Source: Caprella mutica
Taxonomy: Eukaryota; Arthropoda; Malacostraca; Amphipoda; Caprellidae
DNA: 64,000 nt
NCBI GenBank assembly: GCA_947561585.1
Contig: CANNZV010001175.1
Coordinates: 24-64,023, forward strand
Direction of reading: 5' to 3'
Below, one piece after another: positions 23,330 to 62,160 of the stretch (the first letter of the stretch is position 1; every line of letters starts with the position of its first letter). The position numbers and the translations under genes were made by a program. The notes beneath the pieces are model-generated. The model was not told the DNA's origin. It ran no database searches and saw only the letters and a program-made list of their open reading frames with translations.

Positions 23330-23622
23330 TGATATGCCTACCAATAATACCTCTATGCTCATAATTCTATAGGCCTAACACTATAATTCAGTCAAAGGAA
23401 TGATATGCCTACCAATAATACCTCTCTGCTCATAATTCTATAGGCCTAGCACTATAATTTAGTCAAAGGAATGATATGCCTACCAATAATGCCTCTGTGC
23501 TCATAGTTCTATAGGCCTAACACTATAATTTAGTCAAAGGAATGATATGCCTACCAATAATACCTCTCTGCTTTTAATTATATAGGCCTAACACTATAAT
23601 TAAGTCAAAGGAATGATATGCC
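23330..23622. repeat. 71-bp tandem array, interrupted by the recombinase element
   Basis: Four copies of a 71-bp unit starting GATATGCCTACCAATAAT and containing TATAGGCCTAACACTATAAT. The next copy is cut after GATATGCC by the element at 23623-33090 and resumes as GATATGCCTACC at 33091. The array therefore records the exact pre-insertion sequence. Confidence 0.93.
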
Positions 23623-23642
23623 GGTGTCCGGAAAACTGCCAG

Positions 23643-25196
23643 GTGGAAATTGCCGAAGCGGAAAACTGCCAGGTGGAAAACTGCCAGTCACTTATTGGCA
23701 ATACATGTATATTTTTGGACTTTTCTAAAATTTTCTTTAGTTATAAACACATTTTAATTTATAAAAAACGGCTTTAGTCCTTCTTTAAGAGGTTAGGGGG
23801 AATAATTGCATAGATATTGCAGTACTTAAATAATATTTACTATTTTTAACTTATTTTCAAAGTTGCATAAATTTTAAAAACATGTTCTGCAGTTACGTTT
23901 ATAGTATCTTGTTTTTAATTTCCTATTGACGTCAGCAATATAGCCTTTGGATCCGTAGCAAACGTTAAACCCTGTGTGCTGATTTGTGAATACTAGATAA
24001 TTAGATATTCTCACAATAATATAATTTTAAATTATACGTTAAATTAAGCGAATGTTAAATCAACTTATATGTACGTTAAATAGTTATTACATTTACATTT
24101 TTATTCTCCATGTCATTAAACACAACTCACTCATCTTAACAATTTTCATTTATATGTAAAAAGTATTATTAATTGATATGCAATCCAATTCGATCGAGTA
24201 AATTTGTAGAGAAATTAAGTAGGTAATATCAGTTTAATAATCATTGATAATGGGTTGCAAATTATAAATATTTCACGAACATCGATCAAAGTTTTTTTAT
24301 TGTGGGTTCAAGTGAATATTAAGCTTCCCTACAAACAATTCCATGTGTATACCATGTGACACACATTTAAATCATGTGTATACCATGCATATTTTTGGAA
24401 ATGTATACCATATTTATTACATGTTGTTTTACGTAGTAATATGGTAAATTATATGTGGTTACCATATATTACCAGTATGGTATTTACTATTTAACATGTT
24501 GCTATGAATGTGGTAAATAAAACTTGGTTAACACCACTTATAAGCATGGTACTTTACTTGTGGATATGATGTGGTGTATACAATCTCTATTTGATATGTT
24601 TTTTTATGATATGGTTTTAAAATGGCATAACCACATGCTAATTATGTGTTTTTATGATGGTTAGATTGGTTCAATGTGGATAACACATATTCATACTCCA
24701 TTGCCACATTAAAACCATTAAACTACATGGTAACCTTGTGTATGCAATAGGTAATAGTTTGCAGGGTTGAACACTTGTTCAATTCTCAAATTATAAACAC
24801 AAAAAGAAATAATTAGATACTAAGCCCGTTATGAACTGATAATGTAAGGACGCGTTGTGTAAACAATGGAATTGTACTCTGTCCCTAATACAATTATTCC
24901 TTTGTTTCTTCTCTTACTATTTTCTAAGAAAGGTTATATTTTCAATTTCTATATGGTAATTGATTAATTTCTGTAATATTTTTCTAATTATGTATTTTAT
25001 ATATTTCTTTAATCGATTTGTTTACTTTAACTATTATTTTTATTTTATAAAAATGAATATCCGTTTAACTCCTTAACGAATGGCGAATGGCTTTTTATAA
25101 ATTAAATGTCATTATTGAATCAACTGATTAAATTGCCAATAAGTGACTGGCAGTTTTCCGCCTGGCAGTTTTCCGTTTCGGCAGTTTTCCCGCTAT
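23643..25196. mobile_element. nested foldback element in the left end of the recombinase transposon
   Basis: Arms of about 60 bp (23643-23702 and 25132-25191) are inverted copies at roughly 90 percent identity. Each contains two or more CGGAAAACTGCCAGG words and ends in CAGTCACTTATTGGCAAT. The arms are built from the same motif as the host element's terminus, so it is probably a non-autonomous relative. It separates GGAAAACTGCCAGG from AGACTTCTCC, which are adjacent at the intact right end. Confidence 0.75.
24327..24766. mobile_element. MITE with CCCTRCAAAC ends, doubly nested
   Basis: A 440-bp AT-rich element with inverted ends CCCTACAAACAATT and (complement) CCCTGCAAACTATT. Its interior is rich in CATGTGTATACCATG-like words. 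It lies inside the foldback element at 23643-25196. A 2-bp TT duplication is possible but not convincing. Confidence 0.65.
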
Positions 25197-25740
25197 AGAC
25201 TTCTCCATATGACCTTATGTCAGGTTGGAAATTCTCCATTCCCAAGTCAGGTTAAAATCATCTGACAAGTTCTAAACATTGAGTCTGACAATTTCCAATA
25301 CCAACATACAAAAATAAAAAATAGTTATATCTTTGGAACTATTAATTACAAAATGTTAAAGAGATCGTTAAGTGGAGTGAATTTAATTTCAGAATAAGTA
25401 CCGATTTCAGTGATGGATAGGGAATAACTGTTGGAAACTGTCAGGCACTATAATCAGAAACAGTCAGGCAATAAACTACTACTTAGTAAACTATCAGGAT
25501 ATATTATTATAAACTGTCAGATGAAATAATTAGGGGAAACTGTCAAGCACTAAGTATCAGAAACAATCAGGCAGTAAACTACTACTTTGTAAACTATCAG
25601 GAAATTTATTGTAAACTATCAGATGATGAATTAGGGGAAACTGTCAAGCACTATTATCGGAAACTGTCAGACATTAAACTACTACTTCGTAAACTATCAG
25701 GATATATAGTTGTAAACTGTCAAGGATCAGAATATGAAAG
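25197..25740. promoter_or_regulatory. left subterminal repeat zone of the recombinase transposon
   Basis: About three copies of a roughly 118-bp unit (25430-25730). Each copy contains GAAACTGTCAGGC-like words at several spacings, in the order GGAAACTGTCAGGCACTA, CAGAAACAGTCAGGCA, GTAAACTATCAGGA and TAAACTGTCAGATGA. The terminal repeat contains the close variant GGAAAACTGCCAGG. By analogy with other DNA transposons these could be protein-binding sites (inference). Confidence 0.6.
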
Positions 25741-25845
25741 TAGTGGTAACAATTTATCATGTATTTAAATATAGTTAAATTTTTAAAACTAAATTATTCC
25801 AAATAATGTTTATAAATATATCCCTTGTCAAATAACCTTGAGATA

Positions 25846-26691
25846 TCATGGGGGTTTGACTTTCTGTACTTCCGTTCCTGCAGAAGTCGAAGCCCTATAC
25901 ACTCTGCCTTTCTGGTTATTCTCATTTGTGGAAGAAATTTCTCCATACTGTATCATATAGTCCAAATTGACTTCCAAATAGTCTCTCAGATTGAAGTCCT
26001 CTTTCAAATTTGGGAATGCAGGTGGGGATATGAATGGAATTTCAGGAGGATATGGTAGCGCTACATCATTCCTCATATCGCAAAATTCACCCAAGCCCAG
26101 TCTTACAATCTTCCATCTATCTTCAGAGAGAGCATTTAGATTCGGTACATCATTAGCGAATACTACGACTGGAGATGGTTTGAACCTGTCAAAAAATAAC
26201 TTCAAATAATTTCTGCAATACCAAAAGAATATAAGTCAATTATCTACAAAGGACTTCAGAAAATAAAAACATAAGAATGTAGCATGAAGAGAAAAATATT
26301 TATGAAAGCAGCAACACATACTAAATGTACACAACTATTTTAAAACAATCCGATTAAAATATTTCAAACTAAATCCTATCAGTCATGGACAAATCTAAGT
26401 TCATTAATAATTCTCAGGTAATATTTGTATAAAATATATCTACGTTACACTTACTACAACTAATCATATGTACCTTTTGAATACAACTGCATACTTTCCA
26501 GAAGCCATGTACCCATTCTTGATGCATTCAACGAAACCGTAGTCGAAAGACTGTAGCTTTGCTCTCGGTATATCTAAAACGAATCCATTGACATCTGCTA
26601 GCATCGGTCCAATATCATGGACTGACATGGTTTCGTTTAGAAGAATAAACCCATATAGAATATTAAGGACATTTGCTTGTGTGGAGCTCAT
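25846..26691 (-). CDS. Rep-type SF3 helicase-like protein, C-terminal half
   Basis: Two exons, 26474-26691 and 25846-26212, join in frame at a GT-AG intron (donor GTACATATG, acceptor TTGGTATTGCAG) to give 194 residues. Exon 1 contains a Walker B-like GFVLDIPRA followed by YGFVECIKNG and SGKY. Exon 2 contains VVVFANDVPN and LSEDRW. This order matches the back half of the superfamily 3 helicase domain of Rep proteins of CRESS DNA viruses and rolling-circle plasmids. The origin-nicking endonuclease domain and the Walker A loop are not found upstream, so it is a 5-prime-truncated capture or lacks unrecognised upstream exons. The tail after about residue 130 is unlike Rep and rich in Pro. It points away from the recombinase gene and sits inside the same element. 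Both frames are open, so expression is possible. Role unknown. Confidence 0.6.
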
Positions 26692-27903
26692 GTTTTTTAA
26701 TGGATAGTTTAGAAGTTAATTCAACAGTACATATCACATGATGGTAGGATTTCTATAATTTATCATGAACATCCATCAAAATCTTAATAGATCGCCTGTA
26801 CTGGGTAGCAAGCTTTGTAGAACACAATAAACTAGCATTTAGTATGAAATTAAATGCATTTTTAAGTCATGTAGATAAGAGTTATCTTTTCCTCTAATTA
26901 AGATTATATAGTTTGCTTAATTGGAATATGCAAACTATATAAATTGTTCTAAATTTTCTTTGATATTAGAACTAAAATTTAAATCAAATCTAATTATTCC
27001 ATTTAATATTCACATAAGATATAAATACACGTTAAAATAAAAGCTTGTATAAATAATAGCTTATCATATCACAAGGAATTTACTTCCCAATAATACCTAT
27101 GATTGCTTTTATTAGTATGTGAAATTAAATTGAACAGCTAAAATAGTTTAGATTTTAGTGTAAGTTATAAGTTATTGGACAGTTTCACAATTTCGATTCA
27201 ACTAGAAAAAAACTATATGAATTATTTAACGTTCAAATAATTGTGTGGTTGGTATCTATGATATCAAAAGAAGATATCTTGGATACCAGTCACAATTACT
27301 AGTTAAAATTATAGATAAAATAATTCTATTATTTTCGAAAATATTGAACTAATAATATTTACCATTGAAAATAAGTTAAAAGTGAAAATATTTTCTGACA
27401 ATTCTTAACAATTGGCAGGCAATGACGCGTGAAGTTGATCGCTGACGATTTCCGAAATTGACAGCTAATAGTCAAGGTGTTTTCTAGTGATTTGTAAAAT
27501 GTGAGGCTTAGTCACGTTTTTTGGGGCGGGTTATTGTAATACGTAATATTGTAGAAAAAAGTAAACAAACCGTTTTTCACAAACCACAAATAATTGAGAT
27601 GATTTTGGTTTAGAGAGAGGCATTAGTTTTAGTTTTTTCATCATTCTAAATCGATCTAGCAACGTTTCAACTCAATCGGAGCAGTATTTAAAAAGATATT
27701 TGTAAAAATCAGTTGGCGGTGGGGCTAGAAACTGGATATCCAAATTTTTATTAGGTCAGGTAGTATAATTCTGGTGCTATCTGGCAATGAGATCTGAAAA
27801 GTTGAAGTTTGTCAGTATTAAGAGTGCCTATGGTTCATTTGATTTGTTAACTTCAGTGTGACTGGTGACTAGTGAATACTACTCTGACAACTGCAATAGA
27901 AAA

Positions 27904-30900
27904 ATGTCTTCTTATGAAGAGATGTGTATTGATACTTCATTAACTGGTAAGTCTGATAGTAAAATATTATTAATTACTGATTCTTTTAGACTATATCGCG
28001 TTGAGTGATTTTGATAATTTAAATGAAAATATTTTATCTCCCATACTACCTAGGGTAAGATCTGAATTATCAGTCAATTTCACATTTCCGGTCATATAGA
28101 AAGAAATGTTACTTATATTTAATTTTGATTGGTATCCATGATAGGAACCTGCATAAAAAATAAAAATTGAATAATTAGGCTAGTTCTATATATTTTTTTC
28201 TAATAGGACCGAAGATGTGAAATTGACCGATGATTTGTAATTTAGCCTACCTATATATTTTAATATCTAGAGAAAGTTATGGTGGGCCAATTGAAGATTT
28301 AAGGCGTAAGTCCACGATAATGAAACTATTTGTATTTATAGGTACCCAAGTGAAATGTTGAAGTTAAATATTTTATAGGGTGAATATTTAATTTCAGTTT
28401 GATAAAAAAAAAACTACCTGAAAGTGAGCGATGACCTGCGTAATGATAGGGTCACACAAGTGTATTGCGGCACTTTAATTTCCAATTGCGGCCATCGCAT
28501 GAATTTCTCTAAAACCTGCTGAACCTAATTCATACTGAAATGCTGCATATAAAAAGAAGCTAAATGCTTTCTATATATTTTTTTTGTGTGTATTAACTTT
28601 GTAGCTACTATTTTTGTTAGTTTTTTGGGGTTAAAGGCCGCAGTTAACTACAGGGCCGCAATTTACCTGCTTCACCCTAGTTTTAAGTTAATATTTTCAG
28701 CATTCAAATAAGATTACTCTAATATTTCGGTAACTGTGAACATATTGGTAATTGAGTAGTAACCCTATTGCATGAAATGTTGAAAGTCTCTATAGCGAAA
28801 AAATGCAGCAATGAAATAATAAGTTAAAAGTTAATATTATGTCAGTACCCTAGGACTGTCAGATATATCTTAGTTACCGCAATGCAATTTCTTTATTCGA
28901 TTTTATTAAGGAGGTAAATAATAATCATTTATTTATTAATTAACTTTTTATTTATTTATAAGGATATCAGGCATTATTTATTAGCAAGCATTGTATCAGT
29001 TTTCGGATTTTTACCATTTGACGACCCCCACCAAATTTAATTTAAATTATTTTATACGTGTAATTTTGTCCGTAGAGTCCAAAAATCATAACAGTTTTTT
29101 TTAGAAAATAATACTTTTTGAGATATGAGGGTATAAAGTTATTTATTTCCTATGTATTACTGAAGGATTGAGAACTTTAAAAGTACTCGTGTTTCCATTT
29201 AAATTACTCAAAACATTAGATTTTTTACATGAAACTGTAATGTGGTTTATTGTATCCGCTAGTTTGTTGTACTGCACACATCATGACTGATTAATGACCT
29301 GGCAGTAGGGAGGGGGGCTTGGATAAATATCGAATATTTCCAGTTTCCTTGATATCTTCCATTTATTACTTCAATACTGATAATTGATATACGTGTAATG
29401 GGGGGCGTGCCGCCCCCCATACCCCCCCGCCAGGTCATTAAACGATCATGAAGTGTGTAGTACAACAAACTACATAACGGCTATCTTGCGGCTACAGACT
29501 TGTGGTATGTGACTTTGCACTTTCATTTAGGACTGCTTTTTCGACTCCCTTGTACTCATTTTTTCACGTCAACAATTTGAGCTTTAATTTCTAAGTATAC
29601 GTTACATTTTATATTTAATCAAATAATCTTTCCTTTAGATTCATCTGATTCTGATGACGGTTCTAGTTCCTATTGCTCTTCCACTGATGATAATGGATCC
29701 GGCAATTTTGTTTCCACAAAAAGTGTAAGTTTCATTTAATTTTGAGAGAAATATATATTTACCTGCTTGAATAGATAGTGTGATTTGATATTAAATGATT
29801 ATCAATGTATTTTTTTACAGATCAAAGACTTAGACGATCAGCTGGAGGATAAGGATATCTCTGAATTTATGCTGGAAGAAGGAAAGAAAAGATACAATGA
29901 GGGTATCCCATTCGATCTACTCTACCGGCGGTCACAAGGTGAACTCTTAAAAGAAACTGTAGCTGCTGTGCAAGATGCAAAGGCTGCGTTTCAAACTAAA
30001 TTAAGGGAAGCAGCCAGTTTCTATTTCTCAAATATCAATGATGTAATGTTGATGGATAAAGTATGTAATGATGTCCCTGAAAATGTTGAGAGTGGGAAAA
30101 GTTTGAATCCGGTTATACAGAGATTATCGGACGGGACATTAAAACTGAATTGCCCCATTAAAGACTGCTCAACCAGTTCACTTAGGCTGAAGCGCCACTT
30201 GTTAAACCAGCATGAAAACATTAATGCAGATGGAGTTAAAACTATAGTAGAAATGGCACGGAAGATGGAGAAAAACAAATTAGCAAGTGAAAAATGCTAC
30301 ATCGATGAGAAAGCGTCTGAAACTATAAAATACAAGAAACATAGGCCTCTTCATCATGTTGATAGGAAAACAAATTTCGTAAAATGTTTTCTATGTAATT
30401 CTATTGTATCAAACATTTCTCAGCATCTTCATAAAAAGCACAAGCTTACTAAGAGTACAAAGGAGCAGTCTGATGCATTAGAACAGTGTGCAGTTATACC
30501 TAAAGTCTACACCCGAACTGAAGGGAAAAAGGTAGTGGAGCTTCGTGGGTCAGAGTATAATGACGCTAGAAGCACTTACGGAAAAGAGATAGACGAAGAA
30601 CATTCAGTAATGGTAAATCTGAAAAAGTACCGGAACCAAATGAATGAACTTGTATCCAATATTCAGAAATCTAACGATGAGGGCGAGAAGGAATCATTAC
30701 AAGAGGAGCTTAGAGTCTCAAGTGAAAAGTACAAGGAATTCCGATATAGAGATACTAGAAAATATTCAGACCGAACTAAAGTTTGGAAGGAATCTTATGA
30801 ATCGTACTTAAATCTGAGGGACAATTACAATCCAAAAAGATGTGCCAGCATGGCAATCGATGTCATTATTAGGTATGAGGAGAAGGCTGGTCCCATTTCT

Positions 30901-32350
30901 TTTCAAGACTTGCAGAACATGAAGTACCTTCGAAGAATTGTGCAGAACTTCAAAGACGCTTCGGGCATGCAAGCAAACAGCAAAATCAAGTATTTGAAGA
31001 TGTTTTGCAACTTGCTTAGTTACCTCTTCACCGATTGCGATAGCCCTGAAAAGTCTAATGAAGAAGATGATCTGTCGAAAAAGATGCTGAATAGCATTTT
31101 ATTAAAAGAAGCACAAAATGAGGTCGATAATGTGATCGTTTCTCTCTTGAAAGAGACCGGTAAAGAGAGGCTCAAATCAAGAGACAAGAGCATCAAAAAC
31201 CTATTGACCAAAGAAGATCTCAAAATAATGTCCGATGCAATCAGGTCAGATATTTTGAAAATACTATCGGATGATCAGAATGATAGGTCTCTCTATTCAG
31301 TGTCAAAAGTGCTACAAATAAGAAATGACCTGATGGCAATAGGATTCCTAAACCTCGGAAGGCGAACGATGGAAATGACCACCATGACACTTGAAGAGTT
31401 GAAGGATGCCGAAAGGACTGAACTTCAAAATGGAGAAATCTATCACGTTGTTCAGGTATGTTAGGTATTTTTCTTATTAAATTGCACTATCAATTTCCTC
31501 CTTGAATCTCATTTAATATTTATTAAACATTTCGCAGGTCTTGGAACAAAAAAGCCTTAGAAACGGAAAGAAAGCTGCCGTTACTTTCAAGAATGATGAA
31601 TATAAAGTCCTCAATATATTTGTCAATGAATTGAGAGGCAAAATATGCCATAACAATAGTTTACAGTGTGTGTTTCCCTCTTCTGATGAAGGAGGAAGAC
31701 AACTGACCCTAGGAGGAGTATGGAAAATTCTGAACAAGTATAAAGCTCCCTCTGGCATCAAACTGACATCTCAAATTGTTAGGAAGTCTAAGGTCACCAA
31801 CTCCAGAACCCTTGCTCTCACATCCGGTCAGAAAGATGCTACCGCATTTGCTATGGGGCATGATACTGCAACTGGCGATAGGTATTATGCTATGCACAAC
31901 TTGATTGACAGCACTAATGCTTGCTTATCACTTGAAAAGTCTACTTCAGATGCATCATTGGCAGGACCATCATCAGCTTCTACTCCATTGGCATCTGGAC
32001 CAAATCCCGAAGATCTCCTCTTGCCAAGTAGAGTTCAGAAAATTCATTCGGTTAAAAGAGTTGTTCATTTCGAGAAGGGAAGTGAATCGTCAGAATTAGA
32101 AGATCTGGACAGCACCGTTATGAATTTGAGGGCGAAAAAACTGAGGTTAGGCGATAAGGAGGCAGAGGTGGAATTAAATAAGAGTATAAAGAAAATAGTT
32201 GAAACTGTTCGAGAATCAGGAGATATGGAGCAGCTCTACAGTGAGAAGGGGCTACTGTCTGTAAAGTTCATATCACAGAAATTACAAAGTAACTTGAGAA
32301 AAAAGTTCTCTGTGAAGAGAATTAGAGCAGTAGCTAACAAACATTTGTAA
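27904..32350 (+). CDS. zinc-finger tyrosine-recombinase-like protein (four exons)
   Basis: Predicted 858 residues from exons 27904-27946, 29639-29724, 29821-31455 and 31538-32350, all with GT-AG introns and an open frame throughout. The start has a good AAAATG context. The N-terminus is acidic and Ser-rich. Two zinc fingers follow: C154-x4-C-x9-H-x4-H and C232-x2-C-x9-H-x4-H. A charged, probably helical region follows, then a C-terminal domain that fits tyrosine recombinases. That domain has Arg I in LGRRTMEMTTMTLEEL (R557 or R558), a Lys near 599-600, Arg II at R670 (HxxR seems to be QxxR), and H696 in MGHDTATGDRYY with the nucleophile Y704 or Y705. The last 150 residues are basic and unassigned. 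AATAAA signals lie after the stop, around 32406 and 32515. Expected role: DNA strand exchange that moves the surrounding element. The catalytic assignment is by motif only. Confidence 0.75.
28449..28677. mobile_element. MITE with GGGTCACGCAGG ends, copy 1 (TA duplication)
   Basis: A 229-bp element flanked by TA dinucleotides in intron 1 of the recombinase gene. The ends are degraded inverted copies of GGGTCACGCAGGTAAATTGC, and GGCCGCAGTTAACT lies inside the right arm. A better-preserved copy is at 40220-40449. Confidence 0.85.
29245..29480. mobile_element. small MITE with TAGTTTGTTGTACTGCACAC ends
   Basis: Inverted arms of more than 40 bp start TAGTTTGTTGTACTGCACAC at 29260 and end with the complement at 29472. 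The centre has a GC-rich palindrome GGGGGGCGTGCCGCCCCCC. It lies in intron 1 of the recombinase gene, just before exon 2. Half copies occur at 9985-10075 and 61845-61930. Confidence 0.82.
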
Positions 32351-32880
32351 TTTTTTTTATTAGTCATTCAATTGTTAAAATAGGTAGCAGCATATACCTA
32401 TGCAAAATAAAATTCACCCAATTCAAGAATATAGAGATTAGGAGGTCTTTAAGGCCTTGTTTTGTTAATTTATATTTTCCAAATGTATGATTGTTATACA
32501 TTTTGTATGATATAATAAAAGTTTTGTTTCTTTAATTTATAATTCATTTAATCCTGGTTTTAGAGTTTCTACTTTTTTTATACGTTTTTTCACTCCATAT
32601 ATCAGTTTATATCCTTGAGTTACCAATAATATATTCCAATTTAGAACTTAATTGTAAGTAAATGAGAGTTTGAATAATGCTGTTAAACATGAGTGACTAT
32701 TGTTTCAAGTCAAACCTTTTAACTATGAAAATTTTCAATTTATTTCATTTCACTACAATTTGCTCTATTTTTCTTTAAATTTAAATAAATAATTGGCGTT
32801 GAATCTGGAAATTGTTATTCTGAAGTCAGGTTAAGCAGATAACATTGCAAAAGATGAAAACAGCAATAAATTTATTTGAA

Positions 32881-33062
32881 TGTTGACTCTCTATGAAAAT
32901 TTCCGGAAACTGTCAGGCAATCCATTATAGGTACTGCTGCCATTCGCCTGACTTTTTCCAATGTCATGTTACGTATTTTCCGGACAGTTTCAGAAACTGT
33001 CAGGTTATTGTCCAGATTGTGTTTGACATTGCCTGACAATTTCCGAAATTAGTGAGTGGAGA
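32881..33062. promoter_or_regulatory. right subterminal repeats with a 24-bp palindrome
   Basis: Contains GGAAACTGTCAGGCAA, CGCCTGACTTTTTCC, GCCTGACAATTTCC and, at 32981-33004, the near-palindrome GGACAGTTTC-A-GAAACTGTC. Two inverted arms around a tiny centre resemble a recombinase core site. A role as binding site is inference. Confidence 0.5.
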
Positions 33063-33090
33063 AGTCTCGCCTGGCAGTTTTCCGTGTACC

Positions 33091-33160
33091 GATATGCCTA
33101 CCAATAATGCATTCCTGCTCTTAAAACTATAGGTCTATGACTCTAGCTCAGTAAAAGGAA
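33091..33160. repeat. last 71-bp array unit, right of the transposon
   Basis: Continues GATATGCCTACCAATAATGC and then diverges, still recognisable through TATAGGTCTATGACTCTAG and AGTAAAAGGAAT. It marks the transition from the B upstream flank to the GrC 3-prime flank. Confidence 0.8.
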
Positions 33161-47200: not shown

Positions 47201-50200
47201 TGGTTTCTGTAGTTTCTGAAATACTGAATTCTTAAATACTGACTGTTCATATCCACTCCACGGTGATAAACGGTTATTTGTTTTGCTAGTATTGAAATTT
47301 GCAAATATTCAGAGTACTGGTAATAATTAATTAAACTCTTATATAGTTACTTGTATACAATTTTAAAGAAAATAGTTCATCATAGTTGTATCAACTAATT
47401 TTTTTTAACTGTAGCTTTTTGTTTATAGCCTAGTTTGGAATTCTTGACTCATTAAATCATTAAACTAAAACAACGTTTAAACTCTTAAAATTTACTGATA
47501 ATACGAATGGCTTAATTTATACAATATCCTAGAAAAAAAATACATTACTTCAACATGTAACTTGCCACTAAAATGAGAGTTTCTAGAATATTTCATTAGT
47601 CCTTGTGACATTCATATTTGAACATTTAAATAAAAATTAAGTACTTTAGTGCCATTGTTCAATATTTTCAACTTATTGACTTTCATTTTTTCTATTTTAC
47701 AGTTTCATTCTCTGCATCTTCTTTGACAAGAACATTTAAGAAACAAATCGAATAAAATTAAATACTTCCTTCCATTTTTGAGGCAATTATGTATTACCCT
47801 TTTTCAGTACAATTTATATTTCCATTGAGCTATAATCTTATTTAAAAAAATGACCAATATTTAATAACAAGAAATTAGTAAAATTCAATTATCTCTTTTG
47901 TAGAGTTCTTTAGTTTCGTTTAAATTAATTCGATTTTTTTTTCAATTAGTTTGTAATATAGTCCTTTGTAGCATTAATTGTAGTAAATATTCGACGGATT
48001 GGAATTAGACTTTATCTAACAGTTAGTCTCGAGTAATGGGAGATAAAAGTAGCGTTTCTATAAAACCACGTTTCTAATGCTAAACATCTATTCAACCTTA
48101 TCTTGCAATTTCCAAAAATAGCTTTGTTGTCTTTTCTTCACTCATTTTAAATTATCCTTTTCTTTCCATCGTTCGCAGTATAACCTCTTAATTCATCAAC
48201 ATAAAGAAAAAATTAAAAATATTAGATCGAGGTGTCACTCTTTTTAGTCCTTTGGTGAAATATTTTGTAAGTTTGATTTTTAAAATTCGAAACACACTCT
48301 GATCACAGTAAGGATTTTAATCTATTTGTGTTCTTCTTTCCATTAATCTTGTTTTCTATCAAATCTTGTTTCTTCCTTGCCACTCGAATGTGGATACTTT
48401 TAACATAACCAAATGTGCTTCGAATACACATTGTTCAGGATTTTGTAGAATAGCGCTAGGGTTATGCTCTTCAACTTTTGTGTTAGGTAGGCTAACCTAA
48501 CACAAAAGCTCGTAGCCTTCATTTACTATCACCTCTTCATTTTCCTTTTCCATCCGTGAGTGCAGCCACCGGTGCTTGCGTCCCGTTTCATCACATTTCT
48601 TGGTAAGTGACTGCATTCACGGAGTAGCTTTTCTGCATCCATGAGCATTGTCACCAACGTGGGTAAGTACTTTTGTTCATGGAGCCACTTTCCTTTCTGA
48701 CTGCTTCTTCTAGTCCCTTGTATTTAATTTCCTTTTACGTCAGCGAAATAGCTACGATATGACTGAAGCACGACGTTAAACCCCTACTATAATAAAAAAA
48801 AATATTATAGTATGAGATTAAAATAAAATCTATTCAATTTGTATAATCTTGTTAATAATTATTGTTTGTAGCGTAATTCTTAGTCAATATCAGAGATATT
48901 TTAATCAATTTGTTTGTAAACATTTTTAGATTCAAATAACTTCGCACCACTGCAGTTCTCATCAGGACAGTTCTCATCATGGCAGTTCTCATCATGGCAG
49001 TTCTCATCAGTGAAGTTCTCATCAGTGAAGTTCTCATCAGTGAAGTTCTCATCAGTGAAGTTCTCATCAGTGAAGTTCTCATCAGTGAAGTTCCCATCAG
49101 TGAAGTTCCCATCAGTGAAGTTCCCATCAGTGAAGTTCCCATCAGTGAAGTTCCCATCAGTGAAGTTCCCATCAGTGAAGTTCCCATCAGTGAAGTTCCC
49201 ATCAGTGAAGTTCCCATCAGTGAAGTTCCCATCAGTGAAGTTCCCATCAGTGAAGTTCCCGTCAGTGAAGTTCCCATCAGTGAAGTTCCCGTCAGTGAAG
49301 TTCCCATCAGTGAAGTTCCCATCAGTGAAGTTCCCATCAGTGAAGTTCCCATCAGTGAAGTTCCCATCAGTGAAGTTCCCATCAGTGAAGTTCCCATCAG
49401 TGAAGTTCCCATCAGTGAAGTTCCCATCAGTGAAGTTCTCATCAGTGAAGTTCTCATCAGTGAAGTTCCCATCAGTGAAGTTCCCATCAGTGAAGTTCCC
49501 ATCAGTGAAGTTCCCATCAGTGAAGTTCCCATCAGTGAAGTTCCCATCAGTGAAGTTCTCATCAGGACAGTACTAATCACTATCAGTGGAGTTCTCATCA
49601 TTCCCAGGAAGTCTGGTCTCATTCCCTGTGATCTCCATTTATTCATGCTTATTACTTTTAGATTTTCAACGACATTTCTCCGTGAAAAGGAAGTGCATAA
49701 AATACCGAACTAATTTGTATATTTTATTTATTGCTATGCGTTTGAAAAAATTTAATCTTAGGTAAATATAGAATTAATTGTATATTGTAAGTTCATGTTA
49801 ATCATACAATCCTAAGCTTTTAAAAATTGTTCTAAGATTGATACTTCATGTAAACTAGTACTAATCAGAAATCCTTAATTTTAGTAAGAATTGTATCGGG
49901 TAGTTTTTACTTTAGAAATAACCTGCAAATGTATTTAGTCTTGTAGTAGTTTTTAAATTTTTAACTAATTTAATTGTTATCTTTAACTTTTGTAAAACAC
50001 TATTTTTTATAGGTATAAAATAATTATCCATTTTCTATTATTGATCCTTTATTTATCTTATTTTTTAAGTAAAAAACTAATATTGTATGATAGAGATAGA
50101 ACTTGCAAGTTTAAAGCCTTAGTTGACAGTTGTCATGAATCCCAGTTTCACTGCGATGTCACAAATTAAGCACCAAAACTGCAGTAGGTAGCTACATTAG

Positions 50201-61623: not shown

Positions 61624-62160
61624 GGGGTACGGTCAAGAGCCCCCCCGGTCAAGAGCCCCCCCGGTCATGAGCCCCCCCGGTCATGAGCCCCCCCGGTCAC
61701 GAGCCCCCCCGGTCATGAGCCCCCCTAGGTCATAAGCCCCCCCGGTCACGAGCCCCCCCTCCATGTTTTTTTAATCCTTATTTACCTAGTTAAACAAATG
61801 AAGAACTACTTAGATAGAAATAACTGAGAGTTGCTAATGTAGTTTGTTGTATCCGCTAGATTGTTGTACTGCACACTTCATGATTGTTTAATGACCTGGC
61901 AGGGGGGTTCGGGGGGCGGCACGCCCCCCGATATACATATATTTTATGTCTAATCAGTAATGAACTACAAAAGTGTCAATAAGGATTAAATAATATAGGT
62001 AAATAAGGATTTAAAAACAGGGGGGCTCGTGACCGGGGGGGGCTCGTGACCGGGGGGGCTCTTGACCGGGGGGGGGGCTTATGACCTAGTGGGGCTCATG
62101 ACCGGGGGGGGCTCTTGACCGGGGGGGCTCTTGACCGGGGGGGCTTATGACCTACACCCA
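61624..62160. mobile_element. GC-rich foldback element with 8-bp target duplication
   Basis: Flanked by TTCACAAC (61616-61623 and 62161-62168). The left arm is tandem GGTCATGAGCCCCCCC-type units (61630-61757). The right arm is the inverted array (62019-62154) with GGGGGGGCTCTTGACC units. Within it lies half of the TAGTTTGTTGTA MITE with its GC palindrome (61845-61930). The 8-bp duplication fits hAT-type insertion (inference). Confidence 0.8.

Follow-up and report, generated by a model that had tools for sequence, protein, structure and literature searches.

A putative tyrosine-recombinase transposon nested in the end of a short gene-less transposon of Caprella mutica

In the available excerpts of their description, Cryptons are recombinase-only DNA elements without a reverse transcriptase that have no terminal inverted repeats, and in animals no terminal repeats at all, direct or inverted; short sequences shared at the junctions and a circular form are proposed for them, and recombinase sites are given as arms of 11-13 bp around a spacer of 6-8 bp (PMC3212892). 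Here we analyse a stretch of 64,000 bp from the amphipod Caprella mutica, referred to as the window (positions 24-64023 of contig C1175, CANNZV010001175.1, in a 903-Mb assembly; C-numbers denote contigs and L-numbers fetched loci of the same assembly). In this window, the gene for a divergent tyrosine recombinase, as we take it to be, is enclosed by inverted ends and an 8-bp duplication. An initial annotation treated the whole as one element, either an unusual recombinase transposon or a recombinase carried as cargo by a DDE element. Both proposals are replaced here by the nesting of two elements. Probably, the inner element is a self-mobile tyrosine-recombinase transposon with a preferred target site, and it is not classed here as a Crypton. 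Among the open-access papers found, no title or abstract opening described an element of such type.

The outer element starts with the tip GGTGTCCGGAAAACTGCCAGG, runs from 23623 to 25190 on the plus strand up to the insertion point, and resumes with the right tip GCCTGGCAGTTTTCCGTGTACC at 33069-33090. Its ends read GGTGTCCGG...CCGTGTACC, and without the insert it measures 1,590 bp. The two copies of GATATGCC, at 23615-23622 within a unit of a 71-bp array and at 33091-33098, confirm the predicted 8-bp duplication, and the inverted ends are likewise real, with tips (23622-23643 and 33070-33091) that are 86% complementary. The inner element (25191-33068, plus strand, 7,878 bp) interrupts the right end of the outer element, which reads ...GGCAGTTTTCC / CGCTATAGACTTCTCC ... 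GGAGAAGTCTC / GCCTGGCAGTTTTCCGTGTACC. Excision of 25191-33068 in silico restores the 28-base sequence TTTTCCGCCTGGCAGTTTTCCGTGTACC, which is found letter-identical in 8 of 20 fetched copies of the outer element.

The tips of the inner element are perfect 11-bp inverses of each other. The left arm AGACTTCTCCA (25197-25207) is separated from the target arm by the spacer CGCTAT with the core CGC (25191-25196), and the right arm TGGAGAAGTCT (33057-33067) is followed by a second core CGC (33068-33070), the first C of which was assigned to the inner element. Joined, the tips give TGGAGAAGTCT-CGCTAT-AGACTTCTCCA, with 11-bp arms and a 6-bp spacer, which is the layout given for tyrosine-recombinase sites in the excerpts cited above (PMC3212892). 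In a second copy, on C222, the left junction is TTTTC-CGCTAT-AGACTTCTCC and the right junction TGGAGAAGTCT-CGC-AAA-GCAATTTTCC. Left junctions were read by their letters in these two copies, and most others are set by the limits of alignments. On the right, the sequence past the arm TGGAGAAGT[C/T]T is CGC in eight of nine flanks and CGG in the ninth (C272), with divergence beyond. Element and target share the core CGC, and the next three bases are those of the element at the left and those of the target at the right. This pattern is predicted by site-specific recombination, but not by a staggered cut.

The outer left end (query 23622-23690, 40 of 624 candidates scored) recurs on at least 36 further contigs; this and all other copy counts are lower bounds. 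Gene content was sampled on 20 of the 36 contigs, with up to 10 kb fetched from each. The recombinase exons have no match in any of these 20 copies, whose matches are to the short element and to a few repeats from the recombinase introns. Both tips could be placed in 16 of them, 1.04-2.96 kb apart, the right tip being unplaced in L021, L023, L024 and L027. The initial annotation had envisaged copies with the same ends that lack the recombinase and carry a DDE gene: the recombinase is indeed absent from all 20, but the 16 two-tipped copies contain no long open frame, the longest stop-to-stop frame having 123 aa. The recurrence of the ends without recombinase or long frame implies that the ends at 23623 and 33090, and the GATATGCC duplication, belong to a gene-less short element. 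As the gene in turn recurs with other ends, the 8-bp duplication is uninformative on the mobility of the recombinase, and the earlier doubt that a recombinase had made it was correct.

In an 8-base register, the flanks agree in at least 7 positions at 11 of 17 sites (the 16 copies and the window), compared to 3 of 272 cross-pairs. If the left tip of L026 is placed at GGTACACAC, its flanks are equal in 7 of 8 positions, for a total of 12 of 17. Duplications of 9 bp are exact in L009 and L025, and equal at 7 of 9 positions in L011 and L028; the flanks of L016 are equal at 6 of 8 positions, and L012 and L013 have one flank in common. Among the 17 left flanks, position 2 is T in 11 and position 7 is A in 12, and the duplications lean to NTNNNNAC. 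Transposons of the hAT type have duplications of the form nTnnnnAn and CA-type tips. The T and A positions of the outer element lean towards this form, but its tips are GG instead of CA. With Merlin, which the available excerpts describe as having 5'-GG at the tips and duplications of 8 or 9 bp, it shares both features, yet differs in the lack of a transposase in the copies examined and in the hAT-like lean of its duplications (PMC8101967). The outer element is presumably mobilised by an enzyme encoded elsewhere.

The inner element has copies and borders of its own. Its left end has 15 close places, 13 of them unbroken (87-100% identity) and two broken (C1514 and C930), and its right end nine (93-100%), with 14 further places that define a second family. 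Paired ends of family 1 are 7.88 kb apart in the window, about 7.9 kb on C222, 7.1 kb on C373, 9.1 kb on C1803, 9.3 kb on C1224, and 5.0 kb on C551, where there is an inner deletion; the 23.5 kb on C5316 are an outlier. Right ends are unpaired on C2827 and C272, and left ends on C2262, C1500, C4879, C6578, C2049, C1103, C1514 and C930. For family 2, eight contigs have pairs 6.4-10.5 kb apart and C32 has one at 11.3 kb, and the pairing on C5801 is not simple. In both families, the gene accompanies the inner ends: according to tblastn, the last recombinase exon, whole or broken, lies beside eight of the nine right ends of family 1 (not L034) and 13 of the 14 of family 2 (not L050). Broken recombinase copies are present on C551, C373 and C272, and in several members of family 2. 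The left part of the element occurs in two versions. In the window (25197-25763) and on C222 it has 100-bp repeats, of which the window contains three (25433-25722, plus strand), with GGAAACTGTCAGGC motifs that resemble motifs close to the right end; C1803 (L052) and C1224 (L054) have other sequence there, and the element is longer.

The right ends of family 2 read TGGAAAAGTCT-CAC. The flanks beyond conform loosely to a GGGAAAATTGCC consensus, with A at position 6 in 12 and C at position 12 in 10 of the 14. Four of the 14 (L040, L045, L046 and L049) are located in arrays in which most units are preceded by CAC. Judged by these sequences, the core of family 2 is CAC, and both its core and its targets differ from those of family 1. 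On C5801 (6142-13276, L038 and L039), two near-identical family-2 right ends face outward, head to head and 7.1 kb apart, which may represent an inverted dimer, two insertions or an assembly error.

The recombinase gene lies on the plus strand and has four exons: exon 1 (27904-27946, start uncertain), exon 2 (29639-29724), exon 3 (29821-31455), with zinc-finger-like spacings and the first half of the catalytic domain, and exon 4 (31538-32350), with the catalytic K, R, H and Y and the stop codon. The predicted 858-aa frame, whose splice borders are canonical, agrees, at the level of computation, with the intact gene described before. A small inverted-repeat element, also present at other loci, is found within intron 1 (29260-29472). 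The proposed residue spacing holds as well: R, K, QxxR and H-x8-Y occur in order, and the weak XerA and XerD profile matches are in register with them. As to the zinc fingers, visual inspection reveals two C2H2-like spacings, but the 858-aa protein has no Pfam zinc finger. NCBIfam matches of the family-1 protein are XerA (1.5e-4) and XerD (7.5e-4), followed by an unrelated family at 0.027; the profile matches of family 2 are XerD (2.7e-3), XerS (5.5e-3) and Phage_integrase (2.6e-3), and all these recombinase matches are weak and below the curated cut-offs. A reversed-sequence control yielded no recombinase match, only an unrelated family at 0.03. The catalytic residues in exon 4 are kept in the two families. 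Exon 4 differs between them with a dN of 0.24 and a saturated dS (not computable in two comparisons and 3.2 in a third), which points to strong constraint on the recombinase. From its sequence, we take the protein to be a divergent tyrosine recombinase.

A search of the assembly with exon 4 (140 of 524 candidates scored) gave at least 142 matches, among them six stop-free ones at 99-100% identity, six at 66% (family 2) and twelve at 57%. Many more, at 28-36%, lie in open frames that reach 842 aa; these distant relatives are intronless (e.g. C281:322172-323002 and C1120:46066-46896) and form a large and diverse family in the genome. Residues 370-740, compared with 5.8 billion proteins, gave 6932 candidates and none at E 1. 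PF00589 gave at least 150 matches in the assembly (150 of 373 candidates scored), and none of those listed is on a contig of family 1 or 2. Many are strong phage-integrase genes on long, bacterial-looking contigs (C1, C2, C3, C1684 and others), and the assembly probably includes symbiont genomes.

What kind of element is this? It could be a Crypton, such as an insect CryptonI, whose ends earlier work left undefined, but this is unlikely. In favour, it is a DNA element with a tyrosine recombinase as its sole large gene, and Pfam finds no reverse transcriptase in the 858-aa protein or in the two pieces of a second gene (see below), nor do the open frames of at least 80 aa, which comprise only the recombinase and these pieces, include a reverse transcriptase frame as in DIRS and Ngaro, retrotransposons that also have split or inverted repeats. 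A short sequence is shared at the junctions, as the excerpts propose for Cryptons (PMC3212892). Against it, the perfect 11-bp inverted arms do not fit the absence of terminal repeats from described animal Cryptons, and the core CGC, the preference for the ends of another transposon and the zinc-finger-like spacings set the element further apart. The Crypton-derived profile DUF3504 (PF12012) has no match in the 858-aa protein at E 1, and one place in the assembly, on C1906, which is a contig of neither family; Crypton groups need not all match this profile. In integrative elements of the Tn916 type, which are bacterial and conjugative, a 6-bp spacer comes from the element at one junction and from the target at the other, with no duplication. 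The inner element is like them in its junctions, and no kinship is claimed. By analogy, it would work like a Crypton or a Tn916-type element, but we do not assign it to the Cryptons.

Ends of the short element are used repeatedly as the target. The right flanks of the inner element are short-element ends in five of nine cases, and C222 is a sixth, in a diverged one. Eight of the 15 left ends continue into a short-element end (split into two pieces on C1803 and C2262), and 12 further places found with the left-end query are bare ends, in which the match stops at the junction. It is improbable that this preference reflects hitch-hiking, with the inner element residing in one short element and the pair spread by the outer transposase. 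Such a history would account for the inserts in the window, C551 and C1803, which occupy the identical terminal unit of the right end. However, in ungapped comparisons, the window and C222 are 85% identical in the host (54 bp) and 99.5% in the insert (609 bp), and the window and C551 are 87% identical in the host (207 bp) and 96-98% in the insert (in two pieces). As the hosts are 13-15% apart and the inserts 0.5-4%, the insertions are separate. Moreover, the insert is in the opposite outer end on C373 and in another unit on C2827, the left part is different and longer on C1803 and C1224, and several inner copies lie outside short elements.

The second gene (25846-26715, minus strand) is divergent from the recombinase and consists of at least two open pieces (26691-26464 and 26235-25846). 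It may correspond to part of a Rep-type (CRESS-like) helicase, with the front part absent; profile and PDB searches gave no support for this reading. The gene is common to C1803 and C1224 (92-93% at the DNA level), and a 117-aa ENA protein without context is 73% identical to it over 98 columns. A Rep-like gene could suggest the remnant of a larger virus-like element with a repeat-specific recombinase, as in endogenous nimaviruses. In the available excerpts, nimaviral recombinases have a C2H2 domain, are in some cases multi-exon, fall outside Cryptons and are associated with insertion into defined repeats, which makes them the nearest recombinases by description only, but the genomes that carry them measure hundreds of kb (PMC10871703). 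Such an origin is very improbable, as the paired ends are 5.0-11.3 kb apart, except on C5316, and neither exon 4 nor one Rep-like piece found a relative in viral contigs.

That a single recombinase transposon has its own inverted ends at 23623 and 33090 and makes 8-bp duplications is scarcely credible, for although ends and duplication enclose the gene, all 20 fetched copies with these ends lack it, and the gene occurs within borders of its own that adjoin other flanks. The gene-less outer copies and the separately bounded recombinase copies eliminate this reading and the cargo reading alike, the recombinase having its own 7.9-kb element. MarCry, a Crypton fused with a Mariner, is similar in having a recombinase gene between inverted ends and a target duplication, but according to the excerpts its DDE gene is in one unit with the recombinase (PMC3212892), in place of the two separate elements found here.

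We propose the following course of events. The short GG...CC-tipped transposon entered a unit of the 71-bp satellite by a staggered cut, as its anatomy shows, probably with the help of an enzyme provided in trans, and GATATGCC was left on both sides. The 7.88-kb transposon then inserted into the last repeat unit of the outer right end. Its recombinase, if active, would release the element as a circle closed at TGGAGAAGTCT-CGCTAT-AGACTTCTCCA, and the circle would recombine with a GGCAGTTTTC-CGCNNN-GCAGTTTTCC target through the shared core CGC. With the presumed order of strand exchange, the outcome would be the element spacer at the left junction, the target spacer at the right, and no staggered duplication.

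Several observations weigh against the nesting of a self-mobile, site-preferring recombinase transposon. The circle has not been seen. The right flanks on C5316 and C1224, which share one flank, and on C272 are outside short-element ends, as are the left ends on C2049, C5316, C1224, C1103, C1514 and C930, which start at or beside the junction; on C6578, the left flank continues for only 11 bases into a short-element end. The left junction of the window has one C more than that of C222, and only these two were read. With regard to the protein, the first H of HxxR is Q, all recombinase profile matches stay below the cut-offs, the integrase match in PHROGs (0.016) is outscored by a PHROG of no known function (0.0053), searches of PDB, and of Pfam for family 1, found no recombinase, and a single-sequence fold prediction for exon 4 alone was uninformative (pLDDT 35).

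Tentatively, these elements may belong to a large superfamily of tyrosine-recombinase DNA transposons in animal genomes, outside Cryptons. Each family would live in the ends or repeats of other mobile elements, with a core triplet that matches the target repeat (CGC for short-transposon ends, CAC for GGGAAAACTGCCACT-type arrays), and would switch its target via the core, and the Rep-like gene may aid copying of the circle. Elsewhere, the window has further tandem arrays with 32-bp and 15-bp units (1-1125 and 48954-49565), and two inversely oriented arrays around GGGGGGCTCATGACCG (61630-61759 and 62020-62154).

For animal recombinase transposons, ends, targets and intermediates have seldom been defined. 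In the present case, near-identical copies reveal the arms, the core and the target, and excision and integration are therefore directly testable. The locus also illustrates that nesting can mimic an impossible hybrid, in which inverted ends and an 8-bp duplication surround a recombinase. R2 and Dada are target-specific elements that follow a safe-haven strategy. For a recombinase, preferring the terminal repeats of a multicopy transposon would amount to a similar strategy, but with another mobile element as the haven.

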